A stretch of DNA of 64,000 bases from contig OX422202.1 of the NCBI GenBank assembly GCA_949130485.1, positions 6,588,413 through 6,652,412 on the forward strand, read 5' to 3'. Shown here piece by piece: positions 2,628-57,825 of this stretch. Every line of letters begins with the position of its first letter. The stretch's first letter is position 1. The notes under the pieces are model-generated. The model was not told where the DNA came from. It made no database searches and was given only the letters and a program-made list of their open reading frames with translations. The position numbers were made by a program, and so were the translations under genes. The DNA is from Agelas oroides. Lineage: Eukaryota > Porifera > Demospongiae > Agelasida > Agelasidae.

Positions 2628-2938
2628 TCAGGAACATTTCACGGCTGCAATGTCATCAGCGAGGGTACCAAGGTCGACATCATGTAGCACTTCAATCAGT
2701 GTGTCCCAGGAGACGGGGAGTCTGCCTCTACCAGCGATCCATTCTTGAAGGACTTTTGTGTTGATCTGTTCAGGACTGTCTCTGCACTCATGAGTGATGG
2801 ACTGCATTCTGGCACCGTTTGTGTCTTCCAGAAGGAGTACCCCAAACTTTATAAAGTTGGCACCAATCTGCTGGGGGATGTTGATGCGTCTTTCTCTTCC
2901 CCGGAACCTGATCAGTTCTATCAATGTGGGCTGCTCTC
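2628..2938 (-). CDS. Gene A exon 5 (terminal): death domain
   Basis: Last coding exon of the gene A model (1198 aa over five exons). It follows a TTCCCAG acceptor, enters in phase 1 and stops at TGA. The 103 residues form a helical death-domain pattern: IPQQIGANFIKFGVLLL, then a Cys/Asp-rich turn, VLQEWIAGRG, VSWDTLIEVL and LADDIAAVKC. Death domains assemble homotypically to recruit signalling partners; here it would be the effector end of a Kelch-Roc-COR protein in the cytosol. Copies C (35875-36185) and E (63325-63635) differ by only a few residues. The domain call is by motif reading; confidence is good for the fold and moderate for the exon boundary. Confidence 0.82.
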
Positions 2939-3240
2939 CTGGGAATAGGAAGGGGTTAAAAGTACATATAAATACTGCCAATAAAATTAATATATTACTT
3001 GCTAGAAAGTTTCTTCCTCCAAAATTTTCATATTTGAGTTAGCAATTTGTTATTTAGCAGAAATGAACATCAGTCACCCTACGGAACATGTAGTACATTT
3101 TGTGCCAATTTTACTTCAACTCCAAACTGGCATGTCAAACTTTGGTCCAATGAGATCACAGCAATTGTGTACCACTCACAATAATATATTTGCTGCATCA
3201 GAAAACCAAATTCACGCTAGCTGTGGTTTACCATGAGAAG

Positions 3241-3372
3241 TTCACCTGTTGCTAGGTGTGGCTACAAATCAGGTGTGGCTACAAATCAGGTGTGGCTACA
3301 TAATCAGGTGTGGCTACAAATCAGGTGTGGCTACATAATCAGGTATGCTACATAATCAGGTATGCTACAAAG
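3241..3372. repeat. Short tandem repeat, 17-19 bp, intronic
   Basis: Repeats of aggtgtggctacaaatc alternating with aggtgtggctacataatc, decaying to aggtatgctac at the right end. It lies in the intron between exons 4 and 5 of gene A. Copy number differs in B (about 24531-24590) and C (about 36484-36585). Confidence 0.85.
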
Positions 3373-3402
3373 TGTGCAGTTGCAACTGATTTCTCCACCA
3401 AC

Positions 3403-3465
3403 CTATCCTGAGATGGGAAGTCCTTGATTCTGTAGCAGTGGCGGAGGAAGGTGGGGAGGAGACGC
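3403..3465 (-). CDS. Gene A exon 4: Ser/Thr/Pro linker exon
   Basis: A 63-nt exon with a long pyrimidine tract and TCATAG acceptor and a GTTGGT donor; it enters and leaves in phase 1. It encodes VSSPPSSATATESRTSHLRI, a flexible linker between COR and the death domain. It has the same length and boundaries in B (24627-24689) and C (36616-36678), and D has a longer proline-rich exon of the same phase. Because it is symmetric (1-1), any phase-1 terminal exon can follow it. Confidence 0.66.
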   Translation of the reverse strand, partial: ASPPHLPPPLLQNQGLPISG

Positions 3466-3514
3466 CTATGAGAGGTAGACAGAGAAAGAAGTGGTGAATA
3501 GCATTTCATGAGCT

Positions 3515-3515
<1 letters not shown>

Positions 3516-3703: not shown

Positions 3704-3758
3704 CATTTTCTCCTGAGGACTGTCTCTCTTGCCGCTGCCTTCCACTGCACTCACTCAC
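3704..3758 (-). CDS. Gene A exon 3: 55-nt micro-exon
   Basis: Acceptor ACATGTAG, donor GTGTGT; enters in phase 0 and leaves in phase 1, encoding [18 protein letters not shown]. This is what is needed to connect exon 2 (phase 0 end) to exon 4 (phase 1 start). The exon keeps its 55-nt length in all four copies, including the divergent D copy (EGECSGRWQQERLSPGEN). The retained length and phase are the main evidence that it is real. Function beyond linking is unknown. Confidence 0.62.
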
Positions 3759-3940: not shown

Positions 3941-6180
3941 CTCAGTGAACCACCTCTCGTATCCAGGGGGTAGTTCAAATGTTCCCCTTTCACCTAGTAC
4001 ACACTGGAGGGTGCATGGTTTGTTGTCATGGAAGTTGATCTCTGCTGGGTGGGGTTCCTTTGGGTCAGAACCTCGGTGGTTCCCAGGACAGTAGAATGCC
4101 AGATAGTGGGCAGCATCACTCGTGTAGTGCAGGGCTGAAGTCACCTCACGGATCCCTGTCTCGATGCAACATCGTACTTCACCACATGTTGTGGCCAGGG
4201 GAAAGCTGCGATTGCGGCTTGACTTGGACACTGCAGGAGTGCAGGTGATCTCGAAGAACTTTGGCTGCACTGTTATTGAAACTGTATCATAGGGGCGTAC
4301 CAGAAATGAGATCTGATCTTTGAAGATTTGGTCTCTCTGGAGAGTCCACTTGTGACCATGCGACCTTGCGTTAGCTAGGAGGTACACCACCAGGGCTGCG
4401 AAGAGACCCTTGGGACAGTAGCCACATCTGAAGCCAAGCAGAAGAGATGAGTTGTTGGGACTTTGCTCAGCTGATCGCTTAAATACAGCTGCGAATGCTC
4501 TAGAAATTCGCTCGAAACGTGAGGTAGAAGCTGGTTGGGCATGTGCCAGTATGCATGGCATAAAGTACCTCTTCTCCCCTTCCTCCCCCTCCTCCTCCTC
4601 CTCCTCCTCCTTCTCTAGTGGAGCAATGATGTGGAGGTGCTCCAGGAGCTTCACCAGTCGGGACGGAGTCAGGAGATGATCTGAGCTTGCACTAATCTTC
4701 TCAAAGGTGCTGAAGGGGAAGATACCTTTCTTCTTGAAATCCTCTCGAACTACTGGGTCAGCTTTATCAAAAGTGAATGTCTCCACCACTAGGTCGGTTA
4801 TCCGGTCGAAGAGCACCTGCGGGTCTTGGATCACAATCTTCTGAAGGTCTTCCAGCCCGTCTCCCTGGAAGTGACGAATCAGACCTACCTTTGTGTGAAG
4901 GAACCAAAGAGCCTCGTTCAGCTCCTCTCGTGATGTGATGCCACACTGCCTAGCTACCTTGAAGCACTGCTCATAGCTAAGAACACGATCCTTGTGTTGT
5001 CGAATGGTCAGGCTGAAGATCAGCCAGGAGGGAGGGGCAGTGACTTTGAAACTACCTCGACTCCCCAGTCGCTCCACGGCTGCTCGAACCTGCTGGATAC
5101 CGGAATTATCATCAGACAGGTTGTTCACTGCCAGCAGCATGCGGGACTCAGAGGCAAACTGGATCATGCCTTCACGATACAGACCTGTGGACGTCACCAT
5201 GTGACGAAGGCTGCGATCGATGCGATCAATCTTCGCTCGAGAAACTTTATCCATGTGTGTTCCCACAAAGAATACCTGAGGTCTCAGTGGGACTTGTTCC
5301 TTCCCGCACCCCATGTAGACATATGTCCCCATGGAGGCAATGCTGGCGAGGGTCTGGAGGAGGGCCTCCTTGACTGTGAAGTTGGACTGGTAGGGCTCTG
5401 ACATTGTCCCATTGGGGCGGACGTACACCACAGTGAATCGCTTGTTGAGGTCGTGGTCCAATCGGAACACAAGGAAGAACACTGATGGACCAGAGACTAA
5501 CAGAGGAAGGAGCTCCTGGAACTCAATTTGATCCCCTGTGTCTGTCAGGTAGACCATCCAGCCTTGCTCTTGTGAAGCTCTGTAAGGAGTTCTCCTGAGA
5601 GCACTTTTGCACATATCGACTGAGGGTTTCAGATCAGCTGTATTGGAGCAAGCAGAACTAGACCGAGAGGGAAGGTGGGGATGTTTACTAGCCACGGTTG
5701 GAGTGGGAGACTGGTGTGGCTGGTGTCGACTCCTGTGCTCTGATACACTGTCTGGTTGGGGCTGCTCTGATACTCTACCACCTGATGTCATACTGTTAGG
5801 CTCAGTCTGATGCACAACTGCTACAGCTACTGAAGCCTGTGAGTGTGTTTCACTGTCGGCTACCTCACCTGAGTGACTCTGAGCTGTGTCCATGACGACC
5901 GTGACAGCCTCGTCATCATGGCTGAGCTTGACCCATGTTGAGCCGGACACACTCGCAGCTGATGTTGAGGATCTCACAATTTCCACTTGCACCACTTTGT
6001 CGACTACCCCAGTGCTGGGGGAGGAGTGGGTGGGGCGTTCACCCACCATACGCTTCATCAGAGTGCTCTTACCAGAGCGGGGTACGCCGACAAAGACACA
6101 CTGCATGATGGTTTTGTCCAGCGAACCTTTCTGTCGGATGGCCAGCTCAAGGGCAGCCAGATGTCTCTCCTCAGCTGTAT
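3941..6180 (-). CDS. Gene A exon 2: Roc GTPase plus COR domain
   Basis: 2240-nt exon, acceptor ATATTCAG, donor GTATGT, entry phase 1 and exit phase 0 (about 747 residues). In order: a helical lead-in (EERHLAALELAIRQKG), P-loop GVPRSGKST, a Ser/Thr/Pro/His-rich insertion of about 100 residues, the G3 region, G4 GTHMD, and a VNN near the G5 position. COR-A follows (ALWFLHTKVGLIRHF, VIQDPQVLFDRI), then an acidic run, then COR-B (CGYCPKGLFAALVVYLLAN). ROCO proteins such as LRRK2 and DAPK1 use Roc as a GTP switch and COR for dimerisation. Unusually, G3 reads DTGDQ where B, C and D read DTGGQ. The segment after the acidic run also differs from the other copies, suggesting conversion from another paralogue. 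There are no frame breaks. Confidence 0.85.
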
Positions 6181-9916: not shown

Positions 9917-10844
9917 CTGATAACTGCAGGTAGCCAACTTCAACTGATGATGTAATAGTGTAGTGTGAGATGAGGCCTCCAACAGCAATGATGCAGTCCC
10001 TCAGTCCCACCACCAGACACTTGGATCGAGCTGTAGACATGTGTCCCACAAGTGGCCATGAGTCAGAGTCTGCATTGTACATGTAAACATTAGCTGTGGG
10101 GGTGCCATGTGAGTCCCTCCCACCAACTGCCAGCACCCTCCCATTCAAGGTGGTGCAAGTAGACCACACCATTGGTACATCAGCAATACGCTGCCAGACA
10201 CCAGCTTCATTAGTGTGGGGTGGGGTCTGTGAGGGTGGGTGACACGAGTGAAGGAGGGAGTCCAGGGTGCAGGTGAAGACTGCACGGGTTGGGGTGTAGT
10301 TCTTGTCCAAGCCTCCCAGGAGGTAGAGACGCCCTCCACAGACAGTGGCTGACATGTCATAGACAGGTTCTGGTAGGCTTGCTGCAGTGTACCACTCTCG
10401 AGTGGCAATGTTCATCACCTCCACTGTGGACAAGGCTTCTGCTACTCCCCTTCCTCCTGCTGCTATGAGGTAGTTCTGTGCACTAATGACAGCAAGCCAG
10501 TGTCGTTTGGTGGGCATTGGAGGAAAGATTGTCACCCACTTACTACCATTGAAGCTAACAAGGCGGTTGGTATAAGAGAAGGGTCCACTTGGCTCACCTC
10601 CGACTGCAGTTAGGAGGTTGTTGATGACTGCCAGTCCAAAGTAATACCGAGGACACTCTGGCAGTTCACTCCAGTCATCCTTCTCTGAGTCATATGCAAA
10701 CACATCTTGACCACCACCCGGATTGAAGTAGCCCACACTGCCATGAGCTGCAGCTGCACCCCTCAACATCTCACATGGTGCATTTCTGCGTGTTTCCCAA
10801 GTCAATTTCAACTGCTGGACATCCCATACCTCTGCCATTGCCAC
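9917..10844 (-). CDS. Gene A exon 1: kelch beta-propeller
   Basis: 928-nt exon starting at MAMAEVWDVQQ (an in-frame TGA lies five codons upstream) and ending at donor GTGGGT in phase 1 after YLQLS. It encodes about 309 residues with five or six kelch repeats, shown by repeated diglycines (LLTAVGG, LIAAGG, LYLLGG, VLAVGG, IIAVGG) followed by Trp/Tyr-containing strands (DDWSELP, KWVTIFP, REWYTAASLP, VWQRIADVP, DSWPLVG). Kelch propellers bind protein ligands through loops. Compared with B-D, most residues are identical, but the loop sites (for example PRYYFGLAV, PTKRHWLAVIS, VPMVWSTCTT) vary. It is probably the ligand-sensing part. Confidence 0.86.
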
Positions 10845-14959: not shown

Positions 14960-15018
14960 GATACTATAGTGATCCGCACAAGAATCTACTCTTTGTCACT
15001 TTGAGGTAGCAGTAGCCT

Positions 15019-17305: not shown

Positions 17306-18204
17306 TCAATCAGGGCAGCTAGTGGAAGTGCTTGGGGTACAGAACTTCGATGTATCAAGTCCAACCGCCTGTTGGAATGCAGAATCAATGTTGGCATATG
17401 CTGCACTATCGAGGGCTCGGTTACGAGCAAGTACCAACGCTCCTTCGTAGTACCACTGCAGAGTGTGGCCACAGTAGTACATTAGTGCATAAGACCCGTC
17501 CTCAGCCTTATCTATCAGCCACCACGTCTCATGATGATACAGCCCAACATAGTTGTAGACAAAAGAAATATTTTGTCCTGGAGGTGAAGACGGAATTGGT
17601 ACACTTAGAGTCCAAAGCTCCAAGCTACCATTGATGAGATAAACCTGAAACAAAGCCGAATAGTTCCAGAAACTTCCATTGATAGGCGTAAGTTCAAAGC
17701 GTTGACAAGGATAACAATCATACACAGGGTGATGTCCCTTCAACACCCACCAATCCCCTGGTACATCTTTGAATGATAGTTGTTTGAGCGGATGCACGGC
17801 GCGGCAAGTGTTGTTGATTGGTGGGAATGCGATGCACTGATACCCGGATACACAACCCATAAAATGTTCGTATGCAGGATCCGCGTATGTAAAGCTGCAG
17901 TCGTTGAATTTTGCACGTGGAATTTCTCAGGCGTCTTGTCTTCGTCCCATTTGTCCATACATTTCTGTGCACACGAGATTGCCCTACGACAATTAGCATC
18001 CAGTAAGCAACCGGCAGACTGCTTGATACAGTGCTCAATCACACATTCAATGTTGATGGTAGGCGACACTTTGAGCAATCCAGGCGCTGTAAGGAGCTTC
18101 TTGATTTCACTCAGCGTCGCTGAGTCAGTTTGCGCACCGACTTGCGGTGCTTGAATTGTCTGTGACATGTACAGTAACAATGCCAGGTAGCACCACCTCT
18201 CCAT
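17306..18204 (-). pseudogene. Second VDE-like lipocalin, frameshifted
   Basis: Tandem paralogue of 14060-14959 in the same orientation. The 5' part (from MERWCYL; an upstream in-frame ATG lies at 18222) keeps the signal peptide and first Cys-rich segment to EKFHVQN. Near 17905 about four bases are missing relative to the first gene, deleting the CxxxC pair region and shifting the frame. The 3' part continues open in the other frame from FMGCVSGYQC-like sequence through the lipocalin domain (GDWWVLKGHHPVYDCYPCQ, YHHETWWLI, YALMYYCG) to SCPD. Otherwise it is well preserved, so the break is recent or a sequence error. No intron explains the shift. Confidence 0.75.
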
Positions 18205-18224
18205 GATAGCAGTGATCCGCACAA

Positions 18225-18792
<568 letters not shown>

Positions 18793-23605: not shown

Positions 23606-23907
23606 TCACAACCTTAAAAGCCTAACCATATCTTCTGCTCCACTTATAGTGCTAAGAACTTGTACAAACTTGTGGTAATTTGCTGGTTCAATTTCAACCT
23701 GAGCAAGAACAGCTACGATGATAGTTCTCATCTTCTCGGTGTCAGTTTGGGGGGCTGAACAGGCCTTCTCTAGTGTCCCACTGGTGATCAGCTTCTTCGC
23801 AAAGAGATTATCAGCAAGTTCCTCTGCAACCCGGGCAGCACCAAGGTGGCGGATTACTGTCCCAAAGTTTTCTTGAAGCTTCTGGTATTCAGGAGTCTCA
23901 GGACCAC
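23606..23907 (-). CDS. Gene B exon 5 (terminal): CARD-like domain
   Basis: 302-nt exon after a TTCTGCAG acceptor, entry phase 1, ending RLLRL and TGA. It completes a 3630-nt gene B model (1209 aa). The about 100 residues read as a six-helix death-fold of CARD type: QENFGTVIRHL, ARVAEELADNLFAKKLIT, a TLEKAC turn, DTEKMRTIIVAVLAQV, NYHKFVQVLSTI. CARDs pair with CARDs to build signalling platforms. It replaces the death domain found in A and C. Decayed copies of this exon lie at 33667-33818 and 61908-62059 downstream of the death exons of C and E. CARD versus DED assignment is by eye. Confidence 0.74.
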
Positions 23908-24626: not shown

Positions 24627-24689
24627 CTATCCTGAGATGGGAAGTCCTTGATTCTGTAGCAGTGGCGGAGGAAGGTGGGGAGGAGACGC
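24627..24689 (-). CDS. Gene B exon 4: linker exon
   Basis: Same 63-nt phase 1-1 exon as in gene A (acceptor TCATAG, donor GTTGGT). Its phase-1 exit fits the CARD exon entry as well as it fits the death exon in A and C. Confidence 0.64.
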   Translation of the reverse strand, partial: ASPPHLPPPLLQNQGLPISG

Positions 24690-24895: not shown

Positions 24896-24950
24896 CATTT
24901 TCTCCTGAGGACTGTCTCTCTTGCCGCTGCCTTCCACTGCACTCACTCAC
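24896..24950 (-). CDS. Gene B exon 3: 55-nt micro-exon
   Basis: Identical reading to gene A exon 3 ([18 protein letters not shown]), phase 0 in, phase 1 out. Confidence 0.62.
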
Positions 24951-25132: not shown

Positions 25133-27429
25133 CTCAGTGAACCACCTCTCATATCCAGGTTGTAGTTCAAATGTTCCCCTTTCACCTAGTACACACTGGA
25201 GGGTGCATGGTTTGTCATCATGGAAGTTGATCTCTGCTGGGTGGGGTTCCTTTGGCTCAGGACCTTGGTGGTTCCCAGGACAGTAGAATGCCAGATAGTG
25301 GGCAGCATCACTCGTGTAGTGCAGGGCTGAAGTCACCTCACGGATCCCTGTCTCGATGCAACATCGTACTTCACCACACGTTGTGGCCAGGGGAAAGTGG
25401 CGATTGTGACTCGACTTGGACACTGCAGGAGTGCAGGTGATCTCGAAGAACTTTGGCTGCACTGTTATCGAAACTGTATCGTAGGGACGTACCAGAAATG
25501 AGATCTGATCTTTGAAGATTTGGTCTCTCTGGAGAGTCCACTTGTGACCATGCGACCTTGCATTAGCTAGAAGGTACACCACCAGGGCCGCGAAGAGACC
25601 CTTGGGACAGTAGCCACATCTGAAGCCAACCAGGAGGGAGGAGTTGTTGTGACTTTGCTCAGCTGATCGCCAAAACATTGCTTTCAACCCTCCAGTAATC
25701 CACTCGAGCCACGAACTAGCTTCAGCTGGCTGGGCATGTGCCAGTATGCATGGCATAAAGTACCTCTTCTCTCCCTCCCCCTCCTCCCCCTCCTCCTCCC
25801 CCTCCTCCTCCCCCTCCTCCTCCCCCTCCTCCTCCCCCTCCTCCTCCCCCTCCTCTCCCTTCTCTAGTGGGGCAATGATGTTGAGGTGCTCCAGGAGCTT
25901 CACCAGTCGGGACGGAGTCAGAAGGTGATCTGAGCTTGCACTAATCTTCTCAAAGGTGCTGAAAGGGAAGATACCTTTCTTCTTGAAGTTCTCTCGAACT
26001 ACTGGGTCAGCTTTATCGAAAGTGAATGTCTCCACCACCAGGTCGGTTATCCGGTTAAAGAGCACCTGCGGGTCTTGGATCACAATCTTCTGAAGGTCTT
26101 CCAGCCCTTCTCCCTGGAAGTGACGAATCAGACCTACCTTCGTGTGAAGGAACCAAAGAGCCTCATTCAACTCCCCTCGTGATGTGATGCCACACTGCCT
26201 AGCTACCTCAAAGCACTGCTCGTAGCTAAGAACCCGATCCTTGTGTTGTCGAATGGTCAGGCTGAAGATCAGCCAGGAGGGAGGGGCAGTGACTTTGAAA
26301 CTACCTCGACTCCCCAGTCGCTCCACAGCTGCTCGGACCTGCTGGATGCCAGAGTCGTCATCAGACAGGTTGTTCACTGCCAGCAGCATGCGTGACTCAG
26401 AGGCAAACTGGATCATGCCTTCACGATACAGACCCGTGGACGTCACCATCTGACGAAGGCTGCGATCAATCCGATCAATTTTTGCCTGAGAAACTTTATC
26501 CATGTGTGTTCCCACAAAGAATACCTGGGGTCTCAGTGGGACCTGTCCCTTCCCACTCCACATGTAGACATATGTCCCCATGGAGGCAATGCTGGCGAGG
26601 GTCTGGAGGAGGGCCTCCTTCACTGTGAAGTTGGACTGGTAGGGCTCTGACATTGTCCCATTGGGACGGACGTACACCACGGTGAATCGCTTGTTGAGGT
26701 CGTGGTCCAATCGGAACACAAGGAAGAACACTGACGGACCTGATACTAACAGAGGAAGGAGCTCCTGGAACTCAATTTGACCCCCTGTGTCTGTCAGGTA
26801 GACCATCCAGCCTTGCTTTTGTGAAGCTCTGTATGGAGTTCTCCGGAGAGCACTTTTGCACATATCGACTGAGGGTTTCAGATCGGCTGTATTGGAGCCA
26901 GCAGTACTAGACTGAGAGGGAAGGTGGGGATGTGTGCTAGCCATGGTTGGAGTGGGAGACTGGTGTAGCTGGTGTCGACCTCTGTGCTCTGATACACCGT
27001 CTGGTTGGGGTTGCTCTGATACTCTACCAACTGATGTCATACTGTTAGGTTCAGTCTGACGCACAGCTGCTACAGCTACTGAAGCCTGTGAGTGTGTTTC
27101 ACTGTCAGCTACCTCACCTGAGTGACTCTGAGCTGTGTCCATGACGACTGTGACAGCCTCGTCATCATGGCTGAGCTTGACCCATGTTGAGCCAGACACA
27201 CTTGCAGCTGATGTTGAGGATCTCACGATTTCCACTTGTACCACTTTGTCGACCACCCCAGTACTGGGGGAGGAGTGAGTGGGGCGTTCACCCACCATAC
27301 GCTTCATCAGAGTGCTCTTACCAGAGCGGGGTACGCCGACAAAGACACACTGCATGATGGTTTTGTCCAGTGATCCTTTCTGTCGGATGGCCAGCTCAAG
27401 GGCAGCCAGATGTCTCTCCTCAGCTGTAT
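25133..27429 (-). CDS. Gene B exon 2: Roc GTPase plus COR domain
   Basis: 2297-nt exon with the same boundaries as in gene A. It retains GVPRSGKST, an intact DTGGQ G3, GTHMD and both COR parts. The acidic low-complexity segment inside COR is the longest of the four copies (repeats of GEEE encoded by CTCCTCCCC-type DNA at 25778-25862). After it comes EASSWLEWITGGLKAMFWRS, shared with C and D but not with A. As in other ROCO proteins it should act as a GTP-dependent switch and dimeriser. Frame fully open. Confidence 0.86.
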
Positions 27430-30049: not shown

Positions 30050-30962
30050 CTGATAATTGCAGGTAGCCAACTTCAACTGATGATGAGCCCCAGCCTCCAA
30101 CAGCAATGATACAGTCCCTCAGTCCCACCACTAGGCACTGGGATCGAGCTGTGGACATGTGTCCCACAAGTGGCCATGAGTCAGAGTCCGCATTGTACGT
30201 GTAAACATCAGCTGTGTTGGTGTCATGTGAGTCCATCCCACCAACTACCAGCACCCTCCCATTCAAGGTGGTGCAAGTAGACCGCTTCATTGGTACAGCA
30301 GCAATACGCTGCCAGACACCAGCTTCATTAGTGTGGGGTGGGGTCTGTGAGGGTTGGTGACACGAGTGAAGGAGGGAGTCCAGGGTGCAGGTGAAGACTG
30401 CACAGGTTGGGGTGATATTACCTCCCAGGAGGTAGAGACGCCCTCCACAGACAGTGGCTGACATGTGGTAGACAGGTTCTGGTAGGCTGGCTGCAGTGTA
30501 CCACTCTCGAGTGGCAATGTTCATCACCTCCACTGTGGACAGAACTGTATATCCCACTCCCCATCCTCCTGCTGCTATGAGGTAGTTCTGTGCACTAATG
30601 ACAGCAGGGCAGAGTCGTTTGGTGGGCATTGGAGGAAAGACTGTCACCCACTTACTACCATTGAAGCTAACAAGGCGGTTGGTAAAATCTCCTGAGTAGA
30701 ATCCACTTGACAAACCTCCAACTGCAGTTAGGAGGTTGTTGATGACTGCCAGTCCAAATTCTCTCTGAGGACACTCAGGCAGTTTGCTCCAGTCATCCTT
30801 CTCTGAGTCGTATGCAAACACATCATGACTACGATATGAACTGAAGTAGCCCACACTGCCATGAGCTGCAGCTGCACCCCTCTTCATCCCACATGGTGCA
30901 TTTCTGCGTGTTTCCCAAGTCAATTTCAACTGCTGGACATCCCATACCTCTGCCATTGCCAC
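30050..30962 (-). CDS. Gene B exon 1: kelch beta-propeller
   Basis: 913-nt exon from MAMAEVWDVQQ to donor GTGGGT, phase-1 exit. Same five or six kelch blades as gene A, with different residues at the loop sites: YFSSYRSHDVF, CPQREFGLAV, PTKRLCPAVIS, EPVYHMSATV, VPMKRSTCTT. Loop length also changes between blades (GGWGVGYTVLSTVEV; a shortened GGNITPT). No stop or frameshift. Likely the ligand-binding part of the CARD-ended family member. Confidence 0.86.
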
Positions 30963-33567: not shown

Positions 33568-33666
33568 AAGGATACTTTGGTATATAATAAACGAAACGAA
33601 AGAGTCACAGCCATAAAAGTCTAACTATATCTTCTGCAAGAACAGCACAAATGAGTGTTGGTTAGA

Positions 33667-33818
33667 CTGGGCAAACTAGTACGTCTTTCGCGATCAGCTT
33701 CTTTGCAAACAGTTTATCAGCAAGTCTCTCTGCAGACAGAACGGCACCAAAGGTGGTCAATAACTGTACGTGTCAAAGTTTTCCTGAAGCTCCTGGTATT
33801 CACGAGTCTCTATACCAC
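33667..33818 (-). pseudogene. Decayed CARD exon downstream of gene C
   Basis: CTACAG acceptor and phase-1 start kept (GIETREYQELQENF), then an insertion shifts the frame and TGA follows. In the shifted frame ERLADKLFAKKLI is recognisable, then TAA truncates the domain. It is a relic of the exon that is intact in gene B. Confidence 0.75.
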
Positions 33819-34046
33819 CTGTAGAATGTCAATAAAACCAGAATCTTACGTGAGTGAAAGCACCAATATTGTGTGCTCTGAGTAACAGGTTAGATACTTG
33901 TACATATGATGTTATGTAAGCAACAAGTCCACCAATCACAGGGAAGTAGCTATGTGTACAAAGGCTGCCTATGGTTTATTGCTGTCTAGCACCACTTTGC
34001 CACACTTGGTGGTGAACGTGAGTTTTTCATTCCTATGATGGGTGTC

Positions 34047-35874: not shown

Positions 35875-36185
35875 TCAGGAACATTTCACGGCTGCAATGT
35901 CATCAGCGAGGGTACCAAGGTCGACATCATGTAGCACTTCAATCAGTGTGTCCCAGGAGACGGGGAGTCTGCCTCTACCAGTGATCCATTCTTGAAGGAC
36001 TTTTGTGTTGATCTGTTCAGGACTGTCTCTGCACTCATGAGTGATGGACTGTATTCTGGCACCGTTTGTGTCTTCCAGAAGGAGTACCCCAAACTTTATA
36101 AAGTTGGCACCAATCTGCTGGGGGATGTTGATGCGTCTTTCTCTTCCCCGGAACCTGATCAGTTCTATCAATGTGGGCTGCTCTC
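35875..36185 (-). CDS. Gene C exon 5 (terminal): death domain
   Basis: 311-nt phase-1 exon as in gene A, ending VKCS and TGA; completes a 3561-nt model (1186 aa). Differs from A at about two residues (RIQSI for RMQSI, ITGRG for IAGRG). Confidence 0.82.
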
Positions 36186-36615: not shown

Positions 36616-36678
36616 CTATCCTGAGATGGGAAGTCCTTGATTCTGTAGCAGTGGCGGAGGAAGGTGGGGAGGAGACGC
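36616..36678 (-). CDS. Gene C exon 4: linker exon
   Basis: 63-nt phase 1-1 exon, same reading and splice sites as in A and B. Confidence 0.64.
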   Translation of the reverse strand, partial: ASPPHLPPPLLQNQGLPISG

Positions 36679-36886: not shown

Positions 36887-36941
36887 CATTTTCTCCTGAG
36901 GACTGTCTCTCTTGCCGCTGCCTTCCACTGCACTCACTCAC
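36887..36941 (-). CDS. Gene C exon 3: 55-nt micro-exon
   Basis: Same 55-nt exon as in A and B, phase 0 in and phase 1 out. Confidence 0.62.
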
Positions 36942-37123: not shown

Positions 37124-39336
37124 CTCAGTGAACCACCTCTCGTATCCAGGGGGTAGTTCAAATGTTCCCCTTTCACCTAGTACACACTGGAGGGTGCATG
37201 GTTTGTTGTCATGGAAGTTGATCTCTGCTGGGTGGGGTTCCTTTGGCTCAGGACCTTGGTGGTTCCCAGGACAGTAGAATGCCAGATAGTGGGCAGCATC
37301 ACTCGTGTAGTGCAGGGCTGAAGTCACCTCACGGATCCCTGTCTCGATGCAACATCGTACTTCACCACACGTTGTGGCCAGGGGAAAGTGGCGATTGTGA
37401 CTCGACTTGGACACTGCAGGAGTGCAGGTGATCTCGAAGAACTTTGGCTGCACTGTTATCGAAACTGTATCGTAGGGACGTACCAGAAATGAGATCTGAT
37501 CTTTGAAGATTTGGTCTCTCTGGAGAGTCCACTTGTGACCATGCGACCTTGCATTAGCTAGAAGGTACACCACCAGGGCCGCGAAGAGACCCTTGGGACA
37601 GTAGCCACATCTGAAGCCAACCAGGAGGGAGGAGTTGTTGTGACTTTGCTCAGCTGATCGCCAAAACATTGCTTTCAACCCTCCAGTAATCCACTCGAGC
37701 CACGAACTAGCTTCAGCTGGCTGGGCATGTGCCAGTATGTATGGCATAAAGTACCTCTTCTCTCCCTCCTCACCTTCCTCCTCTCCTTCCTCCCCTTCCT
37801 CCTTCTCTAGTGGGGCAATGATGTGGAGGTGCTCCAGGAGCTTCACCAGTCGGGACGGAGTCAGGAGATGATCTGAGCTTGCACTAATCTTCTCAAAGGT
37901 GCTGAAGGGGAAGATACCTTTCTTCTTGAAATCCTCTCGAACTACTGGGTCAGCTTTATCGAAAGTGAACGTCTCCACCACCAGGTCAGTTATCCGGTCA
38001 AAGAGCACCTGCGGGTCTTGGATCACAATCTTCTGAAGGTCTTCCAGCCCGTCTCCCTGGAAGTGACGAATCAGACCTACCTTTGTGTGAAGGAACCAAA
38101 GAGCCTCGTTCAGCTCCCCTCGTGATGTGATGCCACACTGCCTAGCTACCTCGAAGCACTGCTCATAGCTAAGAACACGATCCTTGTGTTGTCGAATGGT
38201 CAGGCTGAAGATCAGCCAGGAGGGAGGGGCAGTGACTTTGAAACTACCTCGACTCCCCAGTCGCTCCACGGCTGCTCGAACCTGCTGGATACCGGAATTA
38301 TCATCAGACAGGTTGTTGACTGCCAGCAGCATGCGGGACTCAGAGGCAAACTGGATCATGCCTTCACGATACAGACCTGTGGACGTCACCATGTGACGAA
38401 GGCTGCGATCAATGCGATCGATTTTCACTCGAGAAACGTTATCCATGTGTGTTCCCACAAAGAACACCTGGGTTTCAGTGGATGCCATGGAGGCAATGCC
38501 GGCGAGGGTCTGGAGGAGGGCCTCCTTCACTGTGAAGTTGGACTGGTAGGGCTCTGACATTGTCCCATTGGGGCGGACGTACACCACTGTGAATCGCTTG
38601 TTGAGGTCGTGGTCCAATCGGAACACAAGGAAGAACACTGACGGACCAGAGACTAACAGAGGAAGGAGCTCCTGGAACTCAATTTGACCCCCGGTGTCTG
38701 TCAGGTAGACCATCCAGCCTTGCTCTTGTGAAGCCCTGTATGGAGTTCTCCGGAGAGCACTTTTGCACATATCGACTGAGGGTTTCAGATCGGCTGTATT
38801 GAAGCCAGCAGTACTAGACTGAGAGGGAAGGTGGGGATGTGTGCTAGCCGTGGTTGGAGTGGGAGACTGGTGTGGCTGGTGTCGACCTCTGTGCTCTGAT
38901 ACACCGTCTGGTTGGGGCTGCTCTGATACTCTACCACCTGATGTCGTACTGTTAGGTTCAGTCTGACGCACAGCTGCTACAGCTACTGAAGCCTGTGAGT
39001 GTGTTTCACTGTCAGCTACCTCACCTGAGTGGCTCTGAGCTGTGTCCATGACGACTGTGACAGCCTCGTCATCATGGCTGAGCTTGACCCATGTTGAGCC
39101 AGACACACTCGCAGCTGATGTTGAGGATCTCACGATTTCCACTTGCACCACTTTGTCCACTACCCCAGTGCTGGGGGAGGAGTGGGTGGGGCGTTCACCT
39201 ACCATACGCTTCATCAGAGTGCTCTTACCAGAGCGGGGTACGCCGACAAAGACACACTGCATGATGGTTTTGTCCAGCGAACCTTTCTGTCGGATGGCCA
39301 ACTCAAGGGCAGCCAGATGTCTCTCCTCACCTTTAT
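37124..39336 (-). CDS. Gene C exon 2: Roc GTPase plus COR domain
   Basis: 2213-nt exon. P-loop GVPRSGKST, DTGGQ and COR-A/B are intact. Just before G4 the segment corresponding to GTYVYMGCGKEQVPLRP in A is replaced by ASTET, a net loss of 12 residues on the strand leading to G4, and G4 reads GTHMDNVS. The lead-in reads DKGEERHL instead of DTAEERHL. The acidic run is short. Otherwise like B and D. The loss is in frame, so the gene is intact, but nucleotide binding could be altered. Confidence 0.85.
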
Positions 39337-45191: not shown

Positions 45192-46110
45192 CTGATAACT
45201 GCAGGTAGCCAACTTCAACTGATGATGAGTCCCACCCTCCAACAGCAATGATACAGTCCCTCAGTCCCACCACCAGGCACAAGAATCGAGCTGTGGACAT
45301 GTATCCCACAAGTGGCCATGAGTCAGAGTCTGCATTGTACATGTAAACATCAGCTGAGTAACTCCTACCAACTGCCAGCACCCTCCCATTCAAGGTGGTG
45401 CAAGTAGAGTCCAACATTGGTACATCAGCAATACGCTGCCAGACACCAGCTTCATTAGTGTGGGGTGGGGTCTGTGAGGGTGGGTGACACGAGTGAAGGA
45501 GGGAGTCCAGGGTGCAGGTGAAGACTACTTGGGTTGGGTGCATATTCTTGTCCAAGCCTCCCAGGAGGTAGAGACGCCCTCCACAGACAGTGGCTGACAT
45601 GAGGTAGACACATTCTGGTAGGCTGGCTGCAGTGTACCACTCTCGAGTGGCACTGTTCATCACCTCCACTGTGGACAAGGCTTCTGCTACTTTCCTCCTT
45701 CCCACTCCCCGTCCTCCTGCTGCTATGAGGTAGTTCTGTGCACTAATGACAGCAGGGTAGTATCGTTTGGTGGGCATTGGAGGAAAGATTGTCACCCACT
45801 TACTACCATTGAAGCTAACAAGGCGGTTGGTAGAATCTCCTGAGAAGACTCCATTTGAAAAACCTCCAACTGCAGTTAGGAGGTTGTTGATGACTGCCAG
45901 TCCAAAGTTTCTCTGAGGACACTCAGGCAGTTTGCTCCAGTCATCCTTCTCTGAGTCGTATGCAAACACATCATGACTATACTCTGAACTGAAGTAGCCC
46001 ACACTACCATGAGCTACAGCTGCACCCCTCCACATCCCACATGGTGCATTTCTGCATGTTTCCCAAGTCAATTTCAACTGCTGGACATCCCATACCTCTG
46101 CCATTGCCAC
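45192..46110 (-). CDS. Gene C exon 1: kelch beta-propeller
   Basis: 919-nt exon from MAMAEVWDVQQ to donor GTGTGT, phase-1 exit. The blade framework equals A and B. Loop sites are distinct: YFSSEYSHDVF, CPQRNFGLAV, PTKRYYPAVIS, ECVYLMSATV, VPMLDSTCTT, TARFLCLVVG. One loop is longer (GRGVGRRKVAEALSTVEV) and one shorter (VGRSYSADVYMY). Frame open. Confidence 0.86.
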
Positions 46111-49945: not shown

Positions 49946-50074
49946 CCACTGACCTGGACACTATGGGAGCAGAGGAGGAGAGAAGGGGTTGCAGAGGAGC
50001 TGAACTTCATGAAGTTGGCACCAATCTGGTGGGGGATGTCGATGAATCTTTCCCTTCCCCAGGACCTGACGTGC
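49946..50074 (-). pseudogene. Relic of the A/C-type death exon downstream of gene D
   Basis: After a CTCTGCAG acceptor, one frame reads GRERFIDIPHQIGANFMKF, clearly related to GRERRINIPQQIGANFIKF of the A/C death exon. The similarity ends there, the helices beyond are lost, and the acceptor phase no longer suits (phase 2 instead of 1). Confidence 0.65.
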
Positions 50075-50844: not shown

Positions 50845-51252
50845 TCAGCTATCACAAGTGTTGGCCCATGTTCCACACAGCCTGGCCAATGGAGATGGAG
50901 TTTGTATTTGGCTACACACAGACACACCAGGGTGTTCTGCTGCTACACACACACCAGGGTGTTCTGCTGCTACACACACACCAGGGTGTTCTGCTGCTAC
51001 ACACACACCAGGGTGTTCTGCTGCTACACACACACCAGGGTGTTCTGCTGCTACACACACACCAGGGTGTTCTGCTGCTACACACACACCAGGGTGTTCT
51101 GCTGCTACACACACACCAGGGTGTTCTGCTGCTACACACACACCAGGGTGTTCTGCTGCTATTGCCTGGGCCAGAGCATGGTTGTTGCCCCCTACATGGT
51201 CCTCCACAGCCTCCACCAACCTTCTCCACGTTGGCCTCCCAAACCTCTCCAC
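50845..51252 (-). CDS. Gene D exon 6 (terminal): second half of death domain plus nonapeptide repeats
   Basis: 408-nt exon after a TCTTCTCAG acceptor, phase 0, ending in TAG or TGA-type stop at 50845. It starts VERFGRPTWRRLVEAVEDHV and HALAQAIAAEH, the W-containing and last helices of a death domain begun in exon 5. It continues in frame into nine copies of a 9-residue repeat (AAEHPGVCV, 27-bp units), then a tail ending ANTCDS. The repeat seems to have grown from the last helix and the next residues. Completes the 1332-aa model of gene D. The repeats are Cys-containing and otherwise of unknown role. Confidence 0.68.
   Translation of the reverse strand: MERFGRPTWRRLVEAVEDHVGGNNHALAQAIAAEHPGVCVAAEHPGVCVAAEHPGVCVAAEHPGVCVAAEHPGVCVAAEHPGVCVAAEHPGVCVAAEHPGVCVAAEHPGVSVCSQIQTPSPLARLCGTWANTCDS
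50921..51163. repeat. 27-bp tandem repeat, 9 copies, coding in gene D
   Basis: Units of ACACACCAGGGTGTTCTGCTGCT plus four bases, virtually identical. Because 27 is a multiple of three, all six frames stay open across the array; only the minus frame that continues the death domain has splice and domain support. Confidence 0.92.
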
Positions 51253-51606: not shown

Positions 51607-51788
51607 ATTGTAGCTCTGTCTCAGCCACAGTACGAGCATCTTTTTCAGGCAGCTGCTGGGAGAGTGGGCGCTGGCTGAGAGGATGGTATCCAGGTCACCC
51701 GGGCGCACACCCAAGGAGATACCAAGGTCCTCCCACCTCCCAGTGAGGTCTGCCACTGCTGACCTCACATCTCGAAGGTCATCCTCAC
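51607..51788 (-). CDS. Gene D exon 5: first half of death domain
   Basis: 182-nt exon, acceptor CTTGCAG, phase-1 entry, donor AAT/GTATGT, phase-0 exit. Encodes DLRDVRSAVADLTGRWEDLG, then ISLGVRPGDLDTILSAS and CLKKMLVLWLRQSYN, the first four helices of a canonical death domain. Exon 6 supplies the rest. This domain is only distantly similar to the A/C/E death domain, so D acquired or kept a different effector module. Confidence 0.74.
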
Positions 51789-52243: not shown

Positions 52244-52408
52244 CTGTGACAATGGAGGGAATCACTGGAGGAGGTGACGAAGGGATTGCCGAAGGAGGTG
52301 GGGACAAGACTGCTGGAGGAGATGGGGACAAGATTGCCGGAGGAGATGGGGACAAGATTGCCGGAGGAGGTGGAGAGAAAGGGGAACAGAGAGAATGATG
52401 AATAGTAC
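52244..52408 (-). CDS. Gene D exon 4: proline-rich linker exon
   Basis: 165 nt, phase 1-1, from a TACTAG acceptor to GTCAGT donor (an alternative GTGAGA donor at 52199 is also phase-compatible). Encodes 8-residue repeats of the LSPSPPAI type from 24-bp units. It takes the place of the 63-nt Ser/Thr-rich exon 4 of A-C. The acceptor is weak, so the 5' boundary is uncertain. Confidence 0.5.
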
Positions 52409-52454: not shown

Positions 52455-52509
52455 CATTTTCTCCTGGGGACAGTCTCTCTTGTTGCCACCTTCCACTGCA
52501 CTCACCCTC
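52455..52509 (-). CDS. Gene D exon 3: 55-nt micro-exon
   Basis: Encodes EGECSGRWQQERLSPGEN; length and phases (0 in, 1 out) unchanged although about a third of the residues differ from A-C. Acceptor ACATGTAG, donor GTGTGT. Confidence 0.62.
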
Positions 52510-52679: not shown

Positions 52680-54940
52680 CTCAGTGAACCACTTCTCATG
52701 TCCAGAAGGTAGTTCAAATGTTCCCCTTTCACCTAGCTCACACTGGAGGGTGCATGGTTTGTCATCATGGAAGTTGATCTCTGCTGGGTGGGGTTCCTTT
52801 GGCTCAGGACCTCGGTGGTTCCCAGGACAGTAGAATGCCAGATAGTGGGCAGCGTCACTCGTGTAAGACAGGGCTGAAGTCACCTCACGGATCCCTGTCT
52901 CGACGCAATGTCGTACTTCACCACACGTTGTGGCCAGGGGAAAGTGGCGATTGTGACTCAACTTGGACACTGCAGGAGTGCAGGTGATCTCAAAGAACTT
53001 TGGCTGCACTGTTATCGAAACTGTATCGTAGGGACGTACCAGAAATGAGATCTGATCTTTGAAGATTTGGTCTCTCTGGAGAGTCCATTTATGACAGTGG
53101 GACCTTGCATTAGCTAGGAGGTACACCACCAGGGCCGCGAAGAGACCCTTGGGACAGTAGCCACATCTGAAGCCAACCAGGAGAGAGGAGTTGTTGGGAC
53201 TTTGCTCAGCTGATTGCCAAAACATTGCTTTCAACCCTCCAGTAATCCACTCGAGCCACAAACTAGCTTCAGCTGGCTGGGCATGTGCCAGTATGCATGG
53301 CATAAAGTACCTCTTCTCTCCCTCCCCCTCCTCCCCCTCCTCCACCCCCTCCTCCTCCCCCTCCTCTCCCTTCTCTAGTGGTGCAATGATGTGGAGGTGC
53401 TGCAGGAGCTTTACCAGTCGGGACGGAGTCAGGAGGTGATCTGAGCTCGCACTAATCTTCTCAAAGGTGCTGAAAGGGAAGATACCTTTCTTCTTGAAAT
53501 CCTCTCGAACTACTGGGTCAGCTTTATCGAAGGTGAATGTCTCCACCACCAGGTCGGTTATCCGGTCGAAGAGCACCTGCGGATCTTGGATCACAATCTT
53601 CTGAAGATCTTCCAGCCCGTCTCCCTGGAAGTGACGAATCAGACCTACCTTTGTGTGAAGGAACCAAAGAGCCTCATTCAGCTCCTCTCGTGATGTGATG
53701 CCACACTGCCTAGCTACCTCAAAGCACTGCTCGTAGCTAAGAACACGATCCTTGTGTTGTCGAATTGTCAGGCTGAAGATCAGCCAGGAGGGAGGGGCAG
53801 TGACTTTGAAACTACCTCGACTCCCCAGTCGCTCCACGGCTGCTCGGACCTGCTGGATACCGGAATCATCATCAGACAGGTTGTTCACTGCCAGTAGCAT
53901 CCGAGACTCAGAGGCAAACTGGATCATGCCTTCACGATACAGGCCTGTGGACATCACCATCTGACGAAGGCTGCGATCAATGCAATCGATCTTCGCTCGA
54001 GAAACTTTATCCATGTGTGTTCCCACAAAGAATACCTGAGGTCTCAGTGGGACCTGTTCCTTCCCACACCCCTTGTAGACATAGTTCCCCATGGAGGCAA
54101 TGCTGGCGAGGGTCTGGAGGAGGGCCTCCTTCACTGTGAAGTTGGACTGGTAGGGCTCTGACATTGTCCCATTGGGGCGGACGTACACCACTGTGAATCG
54201 CTTGTTGAGGTCGTGGTCCAATCGGAACACAAGGAAGAACACTGACGGACCAGAGACTAACAGAGGAAGGAGCTCCTGGAACTCAATTTGACCCCCTGTG
54301 TCTGTCAGGTAGACCATCCAGCCTTGCTCTTGTGAAGCCCTGTATGGAGTTCTTCTGAGAGCACTTTTGCACATGTCCACTGAGGGTTTCAGATCAGCTG
54401 TATTGGAGCTAGCAGAACTAGACTGAGAGGGAAGGTGGGGATGTGTACTAGCTGTGGTTGGAGTGGGAGACTGGTGTGGCTGGTGGCGACTCCTGTGCTC
54501 TGATACACCGTCTGGTTGGGGCTGCTCTGATACTCTACCACCTGATGTCATACTGTTAGGCTCAGTCTGACACACAGCTGCTACAGCTACTGAAGCTTGT
54601 GAGTGTGTTTCACTGTCGGCTACCTCACCTGAGTGACTCTGAGCTGTGTCCATGACGATGGCGACAGCCTCGTCATCATGGCTGAGCTTGACCCATGTTG
54701 AGCCGGACACACTCGCAGCTGCTGTTGAGGATCTCACAATTTCCACTTGTACCACTTTGTCGACCACCCCAGTGCTGGGGGAGGAGTGAGTGGGGCGTTC
54801 ACCAACCATACGCTTCATCAGGGTGCTCTTACCAGAGCGGGGTACGCCGACAAAGACACACTGCATGATGGTTTTGTCCAGCGATCCTTTCTGCCGGATG
54901 GCCAGTTCAAGGGCAGCCAGGTGTCTCTCCTCAGCTGTAT
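52680..54940 (-). CDS. Gene D exon 2: Roc GTPase plus COR domain
   Basis: 2261-nt exon with GVPRSGKST, DTGGQ, GTHMD, COR-A and COR-B. Donor is GTAATT instead of GTATGT. The acidic run is EKGEEGEEEGVEEGEEGEGEK. Small differences toward the 3' end (FELPSGHEKWFTE; CVETGIREVTSALSY) mark it as the most diverged of the four in this region, consistent with its different downstream exons. Confidence 0.86.
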
Positions 54941-56897
54941 CTGAATATTAAAGAGTGTGTGTGTGTGTTTGGGGAGGGGGACTATGCATGTGAGTTGCAA
55001 CTATGCATACAGTCAACTATAAATGTTTAATAAAGTGCAAGGAATCTGTAGAATGTCATCAGACCCTCACCCTCTTGGGCAGGGTCTGGGATTTGAGACT
55101 AGATTTGAAATAGACATGCTCCAATTAGAGCACCCAATGTTACCTCATTGAAACATGTTTTTGGTTGACCTCTAATTTGCATACCTTCAGAGGCAAAATG
55201 CCAAGCTCATGTTCAGTGTACAATGTGGACTGCATGGTTGGGGAAACCACCTCATTAGGTGATTTACACAAACCACATGCATTCACAGATAAACAAGGTG
55301 AAATGGACTTCATCAAAACAGAAAATGAGCATGTCTTTTTGTAATTAGCATATAACTTGGCATTGTTCTCCATGTATCAAGATTTCCCATGTTCCCAGGC
55401 CCCGCCCAGCTTTCCGTTGCTTGCAGTATATGTTCCTCCCCAGGCTCTCCCTCCTCCCCGGGCTCTCCCTGTTGTTCTATGCTAGTCACATAACTGGCAT
55501 GGTTTTCCATGTATCACGATTTCCCATGTTCCTAACCTCCTCCCCGGGCTCTCCCTCATGAAAACTAAATGTAGGAACTGTTCTGTACTGTTCTGAGTAC
55601 TTGCCACTAGTTGTCATGTGAACCACTCAGAGACAGAATTCAAAACTTTTGATGACATGTTGTCGCTCTTGTAACTGGATGTTGCACAACTCAGAAAATA
55701 CATTGTGACTGAACTGACAAAATGCAGTACTGAATGTACTGTACTGCTCTGAGTACTGGCAATTCCTGGTTGTAGGAACACCAACTTGCATGAAAGCCAA
55801 TCAGAGAACAGGAATTTAAAAAGGACGATTGTCACTCTTGTAATTGGATGCTACAGAACTCAGGAAAAACGAGGCACTGCAAGTTACAGAAAGCCGGGAG
55901 GTGGTCTAGAGAAGAGGCTACCAGACACTTGCAATCCAACCATGAAATTCACTTAATGAGTTACAATATACAAATGTACATATGCATGTATACATTAGTC
56001 TCGTACCCAAGCAAAGAATGTCGGGTGGTTTGATTTGAAATTCTTGTTACTAAAATCTTTCTCATTTAAACTGTGGGATGACTAATTGTACAGTGCATAA
56101 TTAAACGTTGCTACATCACGAAGTGCAATGGCTGCCATCAATTACTTTGAGGTTTGTGATTTGGTGAGGAGGAGAGATCTATTGTGTCAGTGCTCCGTTC
56201 TTTTCACAATTAGGCTATAACAAATGAACTACTCGTGAGTTTCAATTGTGTGAGGGATGAATGTTGCCAGCTAATTTTAAGTTGCAGGTTGACCAATGAA
56301 ATCATTTACTGCTTATTTGCTAGTGACTGATGCTTCAGGAGTTAGGAAATGTCATTAACTACTTGAAGCTATGGGAGTTAGGAAATGTCACTGACTGCCT
56401 GAAGGCAAGGCAACAAACTCTAAATTGAATTCTTGACACAATACTTATACAAACACTGGACACACCTCCATGACAAAGATTCATTCAAACTACCAGACGT
56501 TCTTTGCTGGAGTGCATAGATGGCTGGGCATGAGACTACAATATGGCCCCACACCAAATGGGAGGAGCTAAATTATAGTGGAAAGCACATCAACCCTAGC
56601 CTCTAAACCCATGGTCTAATGGTCTAACCAACAGGGGAAGAGGGCGTGGGAGCAGTAGCTAAACATTCTACTCTGAGTGGAGAGAGAAATAACTTGACCA
56701 AGGAAACTCTCCTTTACCTTGGCAATACTGTGACAATGAGAGACTATTGTCTGAGAGTTTCTTTGTTGTCATGTGATTACCTAGTCTCACGAGCCAGACA
56801 CAACCAACCCCAGCGTGGATCACTTTCAGTATCACACACAGGTTGGTTGGTTGGTTGGATGTGGATTGTGAGACTAGTATAATTACCATGCGCCCAC
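54941..56897 (-). other. Gene D intron between kelch and Roc exons
   Basis: About 2 kb, shorter than in A-C. The block with the conserved plus-strand open frame of A-C (7152-7364) is missing here. No other exon seen. Confidence 0.6.
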
Positions 56898-57825
56898 CTG
56901 ATAACTGCAGGTAGCAAACTTCAACTGATGATGTTTTAGTGTAGCCTGAGATGTAGCCTCCAACAGCAATGATGCAGTCCCTCAGTCCCACCACCAGGCA
57001 CTTGGATCGAGCTATGGACATGTGTCCTACAAGTGTCCATGAGTCAGAGTCTGCATTGTACATGTAAACATCAGCTGTGTGGGTGCCATGTGAGTAACTC
57101 CCACCAACTGCCAGCACCCTCCCATTCAAGGTGGTGCAAGTAGAGTACGTCATTGGTACATCAGCAATACGCTGCCAGACACCAGCTTCATTAGTGTGGG
57201 GTGGGGTCTGTGAGGGTGGGTGACACGAGTGAAGGAGGGAGTACAGGGTGCAGGTGAAGACTGCATGGGTTGAATTGAAGTTCTTGTCCACACCTCCCAG
57301 GAGGTATAGACACCCTCCACAGACAGTGGCTGACATGTCGTAGACAGATTCTGGTAGGCTGGCTGCAGTGTACCACTCTCGAGTGGCAATGTTCATCACC
57401 TCCACTGTGGACAGGAGTCTTCCCTCTCCCACTCCTCCTGCTGCTATGAGGTAGTTCTGTGTACTAATGACAGCAAGGTATCGTCGTTCGGTGGGCATTG
57501 GAGGAAAGACTGTCACCCACTTGCTACCATTGAAGCTAACAAGGCGGTTGGTATAAGAGAAGAGTCCACTTGTCTCACCTCCAACTGCAGTCAGGAAGTT
57601 GTTGATGACTGCCAGTCCAAATTCTCTCTGAGGACACTCTGGCAGTTTGCTCCAGTCATCCTTCTCTGAGTCGTATGCAAACACATTATAACTGTACTTA
57701 GAACTGAAGTAGCCCACACTGCCATGAGCTACAGCTGCACCCCTCCTCATCCAACATGGTACATCTGTGCGTGTTTCCGAAGTCAATTTCAACTGTTGGA
57801 CATCCCATACCTCTGCCATTGCCAC
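56898..57825 (-). CDS. Gene D exon 1: kelch beta-propeller
   Basis: 928-nt exon from MAMAEVWDVQQ to donor GTGGGC, phase-1 exit. Loop sites again differ: YFSSKYSYNVF, CPQREFGLAV, PTERRYLAVIS, ESVYDMSATV, VPMTYSTCTT. The N-terminal segment reads LTSETRTDVPCWMRRG where A has LTWETRRNAPCEMLRG. The frame continues past the donor into the intron, but the conserved donor and phase match to exon 2 support ending at YLQLS. Confidence 0.86.

Follow-up and report, generated by a model that had tools for sequence, protein, structure and literature searches.

The HNWD/NWD proteins of Podospora anserina (het-d, het-e) combine a beta-propeller sensor, an NTPase switch and an effector in one protein. In HNWD genes, positively selected codon pairs are located in the d-a loop and the b-c turn of the WD40 repeats, repeats are exchanged between genes, and members of the family control non-self recognition (PMC1805685; this and the other papers cited, with the exception of PMC6321704, are drawn on in extract). 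A ROCO switch, in which Roc is directly followed by COR, is found in the LRR-ROCO proteins of brown algae, whose sensor diversifies on its probable ligand-binding side and whose genes undergo exon shuffling (PMC11378527). We describe here a 64,000-nucleotide stretch of contig OX422202.1 (C20:6588413-6652412, hereafter the window), the search having covered the 259 Mb assembly of 141 contigs. On the minus strand of the window lie four copies of a gene predicted to encode, in this order, a kelch propeller, a Roc GTPase, a COR dimerisation domain, a short linker and a death-fold tail. We consider it probable that they represent a tandem, germline-encoded, receptor-like family with a kelch sensor, a Roc-COR switch and a death-fold tail, serving an NLR-like recognition of non-self.

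Nearest in logic among the systems that share the same switch is, by this comparison of parts, the brown algal LRR-ROCO group. It differs by its LRR sensor, by the order LRR-ROC-COR with no death-fold tail described in the extract, and by the shuffling and splicing of its LRR exons (PMC11378527). With HNWD the kelch family has in common a selection on the d-a and b-c loops of the propeller top (placed by sequence register) and an exchange between copies, whereas in HNWD the propeller is WD40, the switch NACHT, the effector N-terminal and the host a fungus. On these likenesses HNWD is the closest analogue, an analogue and not a relative.

DAPK1 carries an N-terminal kinase and ankyrin repeats, has no kelch and is not known to form a variable array. 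Like the kelch family, it places a death domain C-terminal to Roc-COR (PMC6320773, PMC6337361). In the exons scanned, the death domain is present but a kelch exon stands where the DAPK group has kinase and ankyrin repeats, which places the family outside that group. Animal ROCO proteins fused to immune signalling domains have been reported among novel genes of Actiniaria, as LRR-Roc-COR-TIR_2 and as kinase-death-TIR with Roc/COR (PMC5094078), and in Trichoplax, whose ROCOs carry CARD or death domains (PMC11378527); unlike in the present family, kelch is absent from the text of both papers by term counts, and no selection on a propeller face is described in the extracts. The NLRC and NLRD proteins of sponges likewise unite Death or CARD with a nucleotide switch and ligand-binding repeats in a lineage-specific expansion (PMC12909245), but they use NACHT and LRR instead of Roc-COR and kelch, in the reverse domain order. 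The middle domain of the window copies is Roc-COR and Pfam scans found no NACHT, so that the STAND NTPase of an NLR is lacking, while variable sensor, death-fold tail and expansion are shared with NLRs, though the sensor is kelch and not LRR. Finally, the animal DED-TRADD-N-WD40 proteins resemble the family in joining a death-fold to a variable beta-propeller and in their large expansion, but the propeller is WD40 and no GTPase switch is named in the extract (PMC8195603).

One paper mentions kelch next to Roc-COR in the Dictyostelium and metazoan ROCO group (PMC6320773). A kelch-Roc-COR-death/CARD family was not described among the literature matches listed, most subscription papers lying outside the search. 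Of the papers dealing with immunity in sponges and placozoans, PMC6208332 shows no kelch-ROCO gene in its extract, PMC12909245 no kelch in its extract, and PMC6321704 neither kelch nor roco. A kelch-motif gene, whose architecture is not stated in the extract, is strongly down-regulated in a sponge after exposure to microbial molecules (PMC6208332). Pattern searches of viral contigs and of prokaryote genomes (two short peptide patterns, 80 candidate stretches), weak tests both, confirmed no relative. These ROCO proteins thus have a receptor-like architecture that is not met in the literature searched.

The initial annotation had claimed four minus-strand copies; all are present, and the rebuilt gene models have frames that are open throughout, with exons joined at GT-AG boundaries and no internal stop. 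Copy 1 comprises a kelch exon of six blades with an ATG start (9917..10838; Pfam Kelch_1 E 7e-25), a Roc-COR exon (3941..6180; COR-A E 1.3e-7), linker exons 3 (55 nt, 3704..3758) and 4 (63 nt, 3403..3465) and a terminal death-domain exon (2628..2938). In copy 2, kelch (30050..30956) and Roc-COR (25133..27429) exons are followed by linker exons 3 (24896..24950) and 4 (24627..24689) and a terminal exon for a likely CARD (23606..23907). Copy 3 repeats the order of copy 1, with kelch at 45192..46104, Roc-COR at 37124..39336, linker exons 3 and 4 at 36887..36941 and 36616..36678, and the terminal death-domain exon, also recovered by tblastn, at 35875..36185. For copy 4, delimited kelch (56898..57819) and Roc-COR (52680..54940) exons precede linker exon 3 (52455..52509) and a Death domain split into a first half (51607..51788) and a second half, the latter running on into 27-bp (AEHPGVCVA) repeats to the stop (50845..51252; nine copies of the unit after the Death domain). 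A fifth copy, absent from the initial annotation, enters the window with its terminal death-domain exon (63325..63635, tblastn), its kelch (C20:6659047) and Roc-COR (C20:6654150) exons lying outside.

Counted from ATG to stop, the coding sequences of copies 1, 2 and 3 measure 3591, 3624 and 3555 nt, each 6 nt below the 3597, 3630 and 3561 nt given at first because translation begins at the ATG (in copy 1 at 10838 and not at 10844, where the kelch exon had been started). The 3999 nt reported for copy 4 become 3993 nt, and only with an optional 165-nt proline-rich exon (52244..52408) on which the frame does not depend; a direct join yields 3828 nt. Further optional exons are likewise frame-neutral, so that this stretch of the model is provisional.

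The kelch exon ends in TATCAG/GT and the Roc-COR exon begins after CAG/AT (slashes mark exon boundaries), and the split codon G/AT is in phase in all four copies. To follow this junction beyond the window, 28 kelch exons were tried (four from the window and 24 from fetched loci), 25 of which could be delimited by start and end patterns, the end pattern containing GT; the three unmatched ones are distant (L014, L015, L016). Before the GT donor the length is 1 mod 3 in 23 of the 25 delimited exons, and both exceptions are frameshifted. The array itself extends over C20:6.34-6.90 Mb, only partly covered by the window, with 24 close kelch loci and 25 Roc-COR loci; a same-strand Roc-COR follows 1.3-5.9 kb downstream of the kelch exon at 23 of the 24, and two Roc-COR loci have no kelch (6425671 and 6510154). 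A gene on C9 (L014) also has kelch and then Roc-COR, each exon being 73% identical and the split codon the same, and a further pair lies at C20:4.60 Mb, where the kelch exon is frameshifted. Genome-wide, we counted at least 131 matches to the kelch exon, 91 to Roc-COR, 150 to the death-domain exon and 21 to the CARD exon, figures that refer to matches, not genes, and are lower bounds.

These observations also bear on whether the kelch and Roc-COR exons might be separate adjacent genes that were duplicated together. Kelch exons lacking Roc-COR in the fetched stretch (L015, L016, L025) and the two Roc-COR loci lacking kelch would agree with such an arrangement, but kelch open frames extend beyond the donor, the phase is constant in the 23 of 25 exons just mentioned (with the proviso that the end pattern includes GT), acceptor and frame agree in copies 1-4, and the junction is identical in L014 and L024. 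We consider two separate genes very improbable and reject this explanation on the in-phase junctions and the pairing at 23 of 24 array loci.

Among the kelch exons there are two identical pairs. The stretches C20:6579-6605 kb and C20:6690-6717 kb share identical kelch exons together with a match of equal score to the violaxanthin de-epoxidase (VDE) genes described below, which suggests that a segment was duplicated very recently or that the assembly contains it twice. Outside the array at least 102 further kelch matches were recorded at 36-50% identity; in about 10 of the 13 non-array loci read by eye, a coiled-coil-like stretch precedes kelch, and the part upstream of one of them (L009 with L078, C3:18259300-18265000; upstream part L078) resembles a protein kinase by eye. 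The genome may therefore hold a second, larger kelch family. At L028 (C48), positions 113-220 are 58% identical to the second half of the copy 4 Death domain and adjoin a divergent kelch frame.

Of the domains proposed by the initial annotation, Kelch_1 was strongly confirmed in profile searches on the window proteins (E 1e-17 to 2e-26 in the four kelch exons), while Roc, COR, Death and CARD were matched, yet under the Pfam cut-offs. The kelch exon starts with ATG and its matches above cut-off are of kelch type only, a result for the exon as scanned and not for upstream sequence that might hold a BTB domain. We assign the Roc-COR exon to the ROCO family because two paralogues of the same genome, L076 and L077, which are 36-40% identical to the window Roc-COR, exceed the COR-A cut-off of 35.3 bits (40.7 and 40.9 bits), and one of them, L077, comes near the Roc cut-off (E 6e-6, 26.9 bits against 27); Roc is directly followed by COR, as in ROCO proteins. 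A P-loop, D(T/S)GGQ and THxD-like motifs were read by eye in the Roc alignments, and we take them to play their usual roles in Roc domains. Copy 1 has DTGDQ within 3941-6180 where the six other aligned Roc domains have DTGGQ, and its GTPase may possibly be altered.

A profile built from 13 death-domain tails matched the death domains of PIDD (E 2.4e-4) and FAS (E 1.5e-3) in the PDB, and Pfam Death was matched at E up to 1 by 11 of the 13 members, the best at 2.7e-8 and copy 1 itself at about 0.1. The tails of copies 1, 3 and 5 thereby fall into the death-domain superfamily by sequence match, an identity strengthened by profile and paralogues; the longer open frame of the copy 5 tail had no Pfam match at E up to 1. 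The two joined exons of the copy 4 tail matched Pfam Death at E 0.0013. The copy 2 tail is likely a CARD: its own Pfam CARD match (E 0.0045) is under the cut-off, and five of six CARD members matched at E up to 1, the best at 1.2e-5.

The strongest indication of a receptor function is seen in the kelch propeller. Among the four window copies, pairwise ratios of nonsynonymous to synonymous divergence (dN/dS) ranged from 0.94 to 1.86 for kelch and from 0.16 to 0.28 for Roc-COR, with an intron mismatch of 3.5-4.9%. Site models were fitted to 286 gap-free codons of 20 distinct intact genes, leaving out three kelch exons with stops or frameshifts (g6449, g4606, g6530), two duplicates (of w1 and g6695) and the distant L014, L015 and L016. 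We ran the models with our own script, which computes naive posteriors, starts each model from a single point and lets branch lengths vary only by a common scale. M2a was favoured over M1a with twice the log-likelihood difference (2dlnL) at 618 and an omega2 of 13.8, an approximate value, on 9.7% of the sites; 26 sites had a posterior above 0.9. All 26 are located in the d-a and b-c loops predicted for the top face (57 of the 286 codons) and none in the a-b and c-d loops of the bottom face (61 codons); the hypergeometric P of 2e-21 is descriptive only, since the loop limits were drawn from the kelch register after the variable sites were known. The faces were assigned from that register and from sequence alignment to solved kelch propellers, not from a structural model. 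The ratio of nonsynonymous to synonymous differences per site (pN/pS) was 1.55 in the top loops, 0.41 in the bottom loops and 0.53 in the rest. In each of the six blades two d-a positions are selected, the first and third of the register in blade 1 and the second and third in the other five, and the resulting 12-residue signature is distinct in 20 of 20 genes. At the 23 hot sites listed, 122 of 138 site-residue variants are each encoded by just one codon, and one third base predominates at most sites.

Neighbouring kelch sites were less often incompatible than others (0.288 versus 0.430, reached by none of 2000 permutations), which shows that recombination or conversion mixes the kelch copies; such mixing would make new combinations of blades. 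Recombination is able to inflate site-model tests, and this point, together with the self-written script and its branch lengths fixed up to scale, could be taken to mean that relaxed constraint, recombination or the alignment has produced the kelch signal as an artefact. However, a segment-wise fit with separate trees kept the signal, with a summed 2dlnL of 361 and 26 sites, 25 of them in top loops and one outside (column 276). In a matched control of five genes, Roc-COR had an omega of 0.245, a 2dlnL of 0.88 and no selected site, whereas kelch of the same genes had an omega of 1.61, a 2dlnL of 155.7 and 24 sites, 23 in top loops and one outside (column 172); Roc-COR of seven genes (five array genes and two others) gave 2dlnL 3.43 and again no site. 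Strands and bottom loops show conservation, the codons used are all gap-free, and the top-loop pN of 0.26 (20 genes) is more than five times the intron mismatch of 0.035-0.049 (four window copies). We therefore regard an artefact as extremely improbable and reject it, given the signal retained across segments and the null result for Roc-COR. The alignments thus indicate a diversifying selection that is confined to the loops of one predicted propeller face, with Roc-COR conserved in the same genes.

Synonymous sites of Roc-COR in copies 1-4 have diverged by 0.11-0.16, which exceeds two- to threefold both the mismatch in their introns (0.035-0.049) and the silent divergence in kelch strands (0.054, 20 genes); unequal conversion along the gene might be the cause.

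Placed by repeat register with solved kelch proteins and the KEAP1 sequence, the selected d-a positions appear to coincide with ligand contacts of KEAP1. Among such KEAP1 residues are Ser363, Gly364, Asn414, Arg415, Ile461, Gly462, Ser508, Gly509, Ser555, Ala556, Ser602 and Gly603 (PMC6891428). Another possible function is that the copies are paralogue-specific scaffolds or degradation adaptors for diverse endogenous partners and that the variable face reflects a specialisation for these partners instead of a conflict. KLHL propellers are a further case of binding to endogenous partners. KEAP1 itself engages an endogenous partner, and ligands as well, by a face of this sort (PMC6891428). However, recent copies that reach an omega of about 14 over 26 sites, with a distinct signature in each of 20 genes, differ more than partner specialisation would lead one to expect, and the death-fold tails speak against a scaffold or adaptor, which makes this explanation improbable.

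In addition to the sensor, the tails differ between copies. The array contains 16 death-domain exons, two CARD exons, three split Death domains and two divergent death domains. The 16 death-domain exons are 97-100% identical to that of copy 1, and 14 of them stand behind kelch-paired genes and two behind Roc-COR loci without kelch. An intact CARD tail occurs in two array genes, the split Death domain in copy 4 and two others (L032, L035), and divergent death domains in L024 and L044; a more divergent split-Death match (L047) was assigned to no gene. A phase-1 intron precedes the first tail exon in all four window copies, so death-domain, CARD and split-Death exons could be swapped without a change of frame. 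Decayed CARD remnants are found 3' of death-domain exons, and death-domain remnants inside split-Death genes, which is the trace expected when one tail is replaced by another. In the window, tblastn located such remnants, which the initial annotation lacks, all on the minus strand, 3' of copy 3 (33608..33819, a CARD exon with gaps and a stop), 3' of the fifth copy's tail (61873..62060, CARD) and in the tail of copy 4 (50002..50070, a death-domain exon of the copy 1/3/5 type, E 1e-6). Taken at the level of sequence, this documents that tail exons have been exchanged between copies.

The logic proposed by the initial annotation, with sensor, switch and effector in one protein and a recently duplicated cluster, is therefore supported by 24 kelch loci, loop-confined selection, recombination and tail exchange. 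We infer from this pattern the role of the loops as ligand face, the type of ligand, a GTP-dependent switching and death signalling. The proteins are probably cytosolic. The top face, formed by the d-a and b-c loops of six blades, would bind a fast-changing ligand, most likely a non-self protein of a pathogen, a symbiont or a foreign conspecific. Death-fold tails act through clustering. Roc-COR units dimerise (PMC6337361), and binding of a ligand might alter their nucleotide state and dimer geometry so that the tails cluster. Once clustered, the death domain, Death or CARD would bring in death-fold adaptors or caspases and so lead to cell death or an inflammatory-type response, and different copies may feed different adaptors by way of the tail exons exchanged behind phase-1 introns. 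New specificities would arise as genes duplicate, copies recombine and positive selection acts on some 26 residues of the face.

Non-self in this sense could be microbes, symbionts or conspecific cells. With the same architecture, the ligand might be a polymorphic self protein and the response a rejection of foreign conspecific cells, as for the fungal het-d and het-e. Selection on the propeller top and exchange between copies are alike in the Podospora HNWD genes, which control heterokaryon incompatibility (PMC1805685), but one genome cannot tell allorecognition from the recognition of microbes, and a multi-gene array with several tail types is compatible with pathogen surveillance too. We rate allorecognition as unlikely, though worth bearing in mind, and favour the broader NLR-like recognition of non-self.

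Several observations weigh against this receptor reading. In the four window copies the matches to COR-A (E 2e-6 to 1e-7) and Roc (E 0.024 to 8e-4) are both under the Pfam cut-offs, the latter plausibly owing to a long low-complexity insert seen by eye between P-loop and DTGGQ, and a Roc-COR profile search of the PDB matched no Roco structure. All three tail types of the array are likewise under their Pfam cut-offs, and a CARD profile search of the PDB matched no CARD. No Roc-COR was found within the fetched 8-9 kb of the kelch exons at C20:6898756, C4:1960941 and C20:3634216, so kelch can exist alone. Some copies look broken: a frameshift affects one kelch exon of the array and another at C20:4606199, a third kelch exon contains a stop, and Roc-COR is frameshifted or truncated at 6456500/6458295, 6525791 and 6510154. 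No tail was recognised for C20:6530606 (kelch with a stop) and C20:6407758, where about 1 kb beside each lay outside the fetched sequence. With respect to selection, pS is raised in the top loops (0.17 versus 0.055), which makes the omega value approximate and which we attribute to the way codons differing by more than one step are counted and to copies exchanging sequence; moreover, top-loop pN exceeds the silent divergence of Roc-COR (0.11-0.16) only about two-fold if the latter, and not the introns, is taken as the neutral yardstick.

The window contains further features. Between copies 1 and 2 lie two tandem minus-strand genes with a VDE lipocalin domain (14060-14995 and 17306-18228), one intact (Pfam E 1.9e-35) and one apparently frameshifted by eye; VDE had six matches in the host genome and none in 14 control genomes, and is unexpected in a presumed animal. 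Intron 1 of copy 1 harbours an inverted-repeat element (7641-8791) of 41-bp repeat units whose arms are 98% complementary over 518 bases, and a tandem array of 28 copies of a 40-bp unit (417-1540) is located downstream of copy 1. Open frames at 60639-61865 (minus strand) and 21819-22328 (plus strand) resemble remnants of mobile elements by eye; the former had no Pfam or NCBIfam match.

We lean towards the view, with some reserve, that the family constitutes a separate animal class of germline-diversified intracellular receptors, in which ROCO replaces NACHT, kelch replaces LRR and the tail is a swappable exon cassette, and which is convergent with HNWD down to the selected loops. If this is true, the host, probably an early-branching animal, would possess a recognition repertoire beyond the usual TLR, NLR and SRCR, with the GTPase module known from LRRK2 and DAPK1 as its basis, and animal ROCO switches would gain a role in recognition comparable to that of NLRs. 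It would also represent a clear convergence with fungal non-self receptors, the same propeller loops being selected in both, and the array allows testing which molecules, whether microbial, symbiont or conspecific, select the propeller faces.

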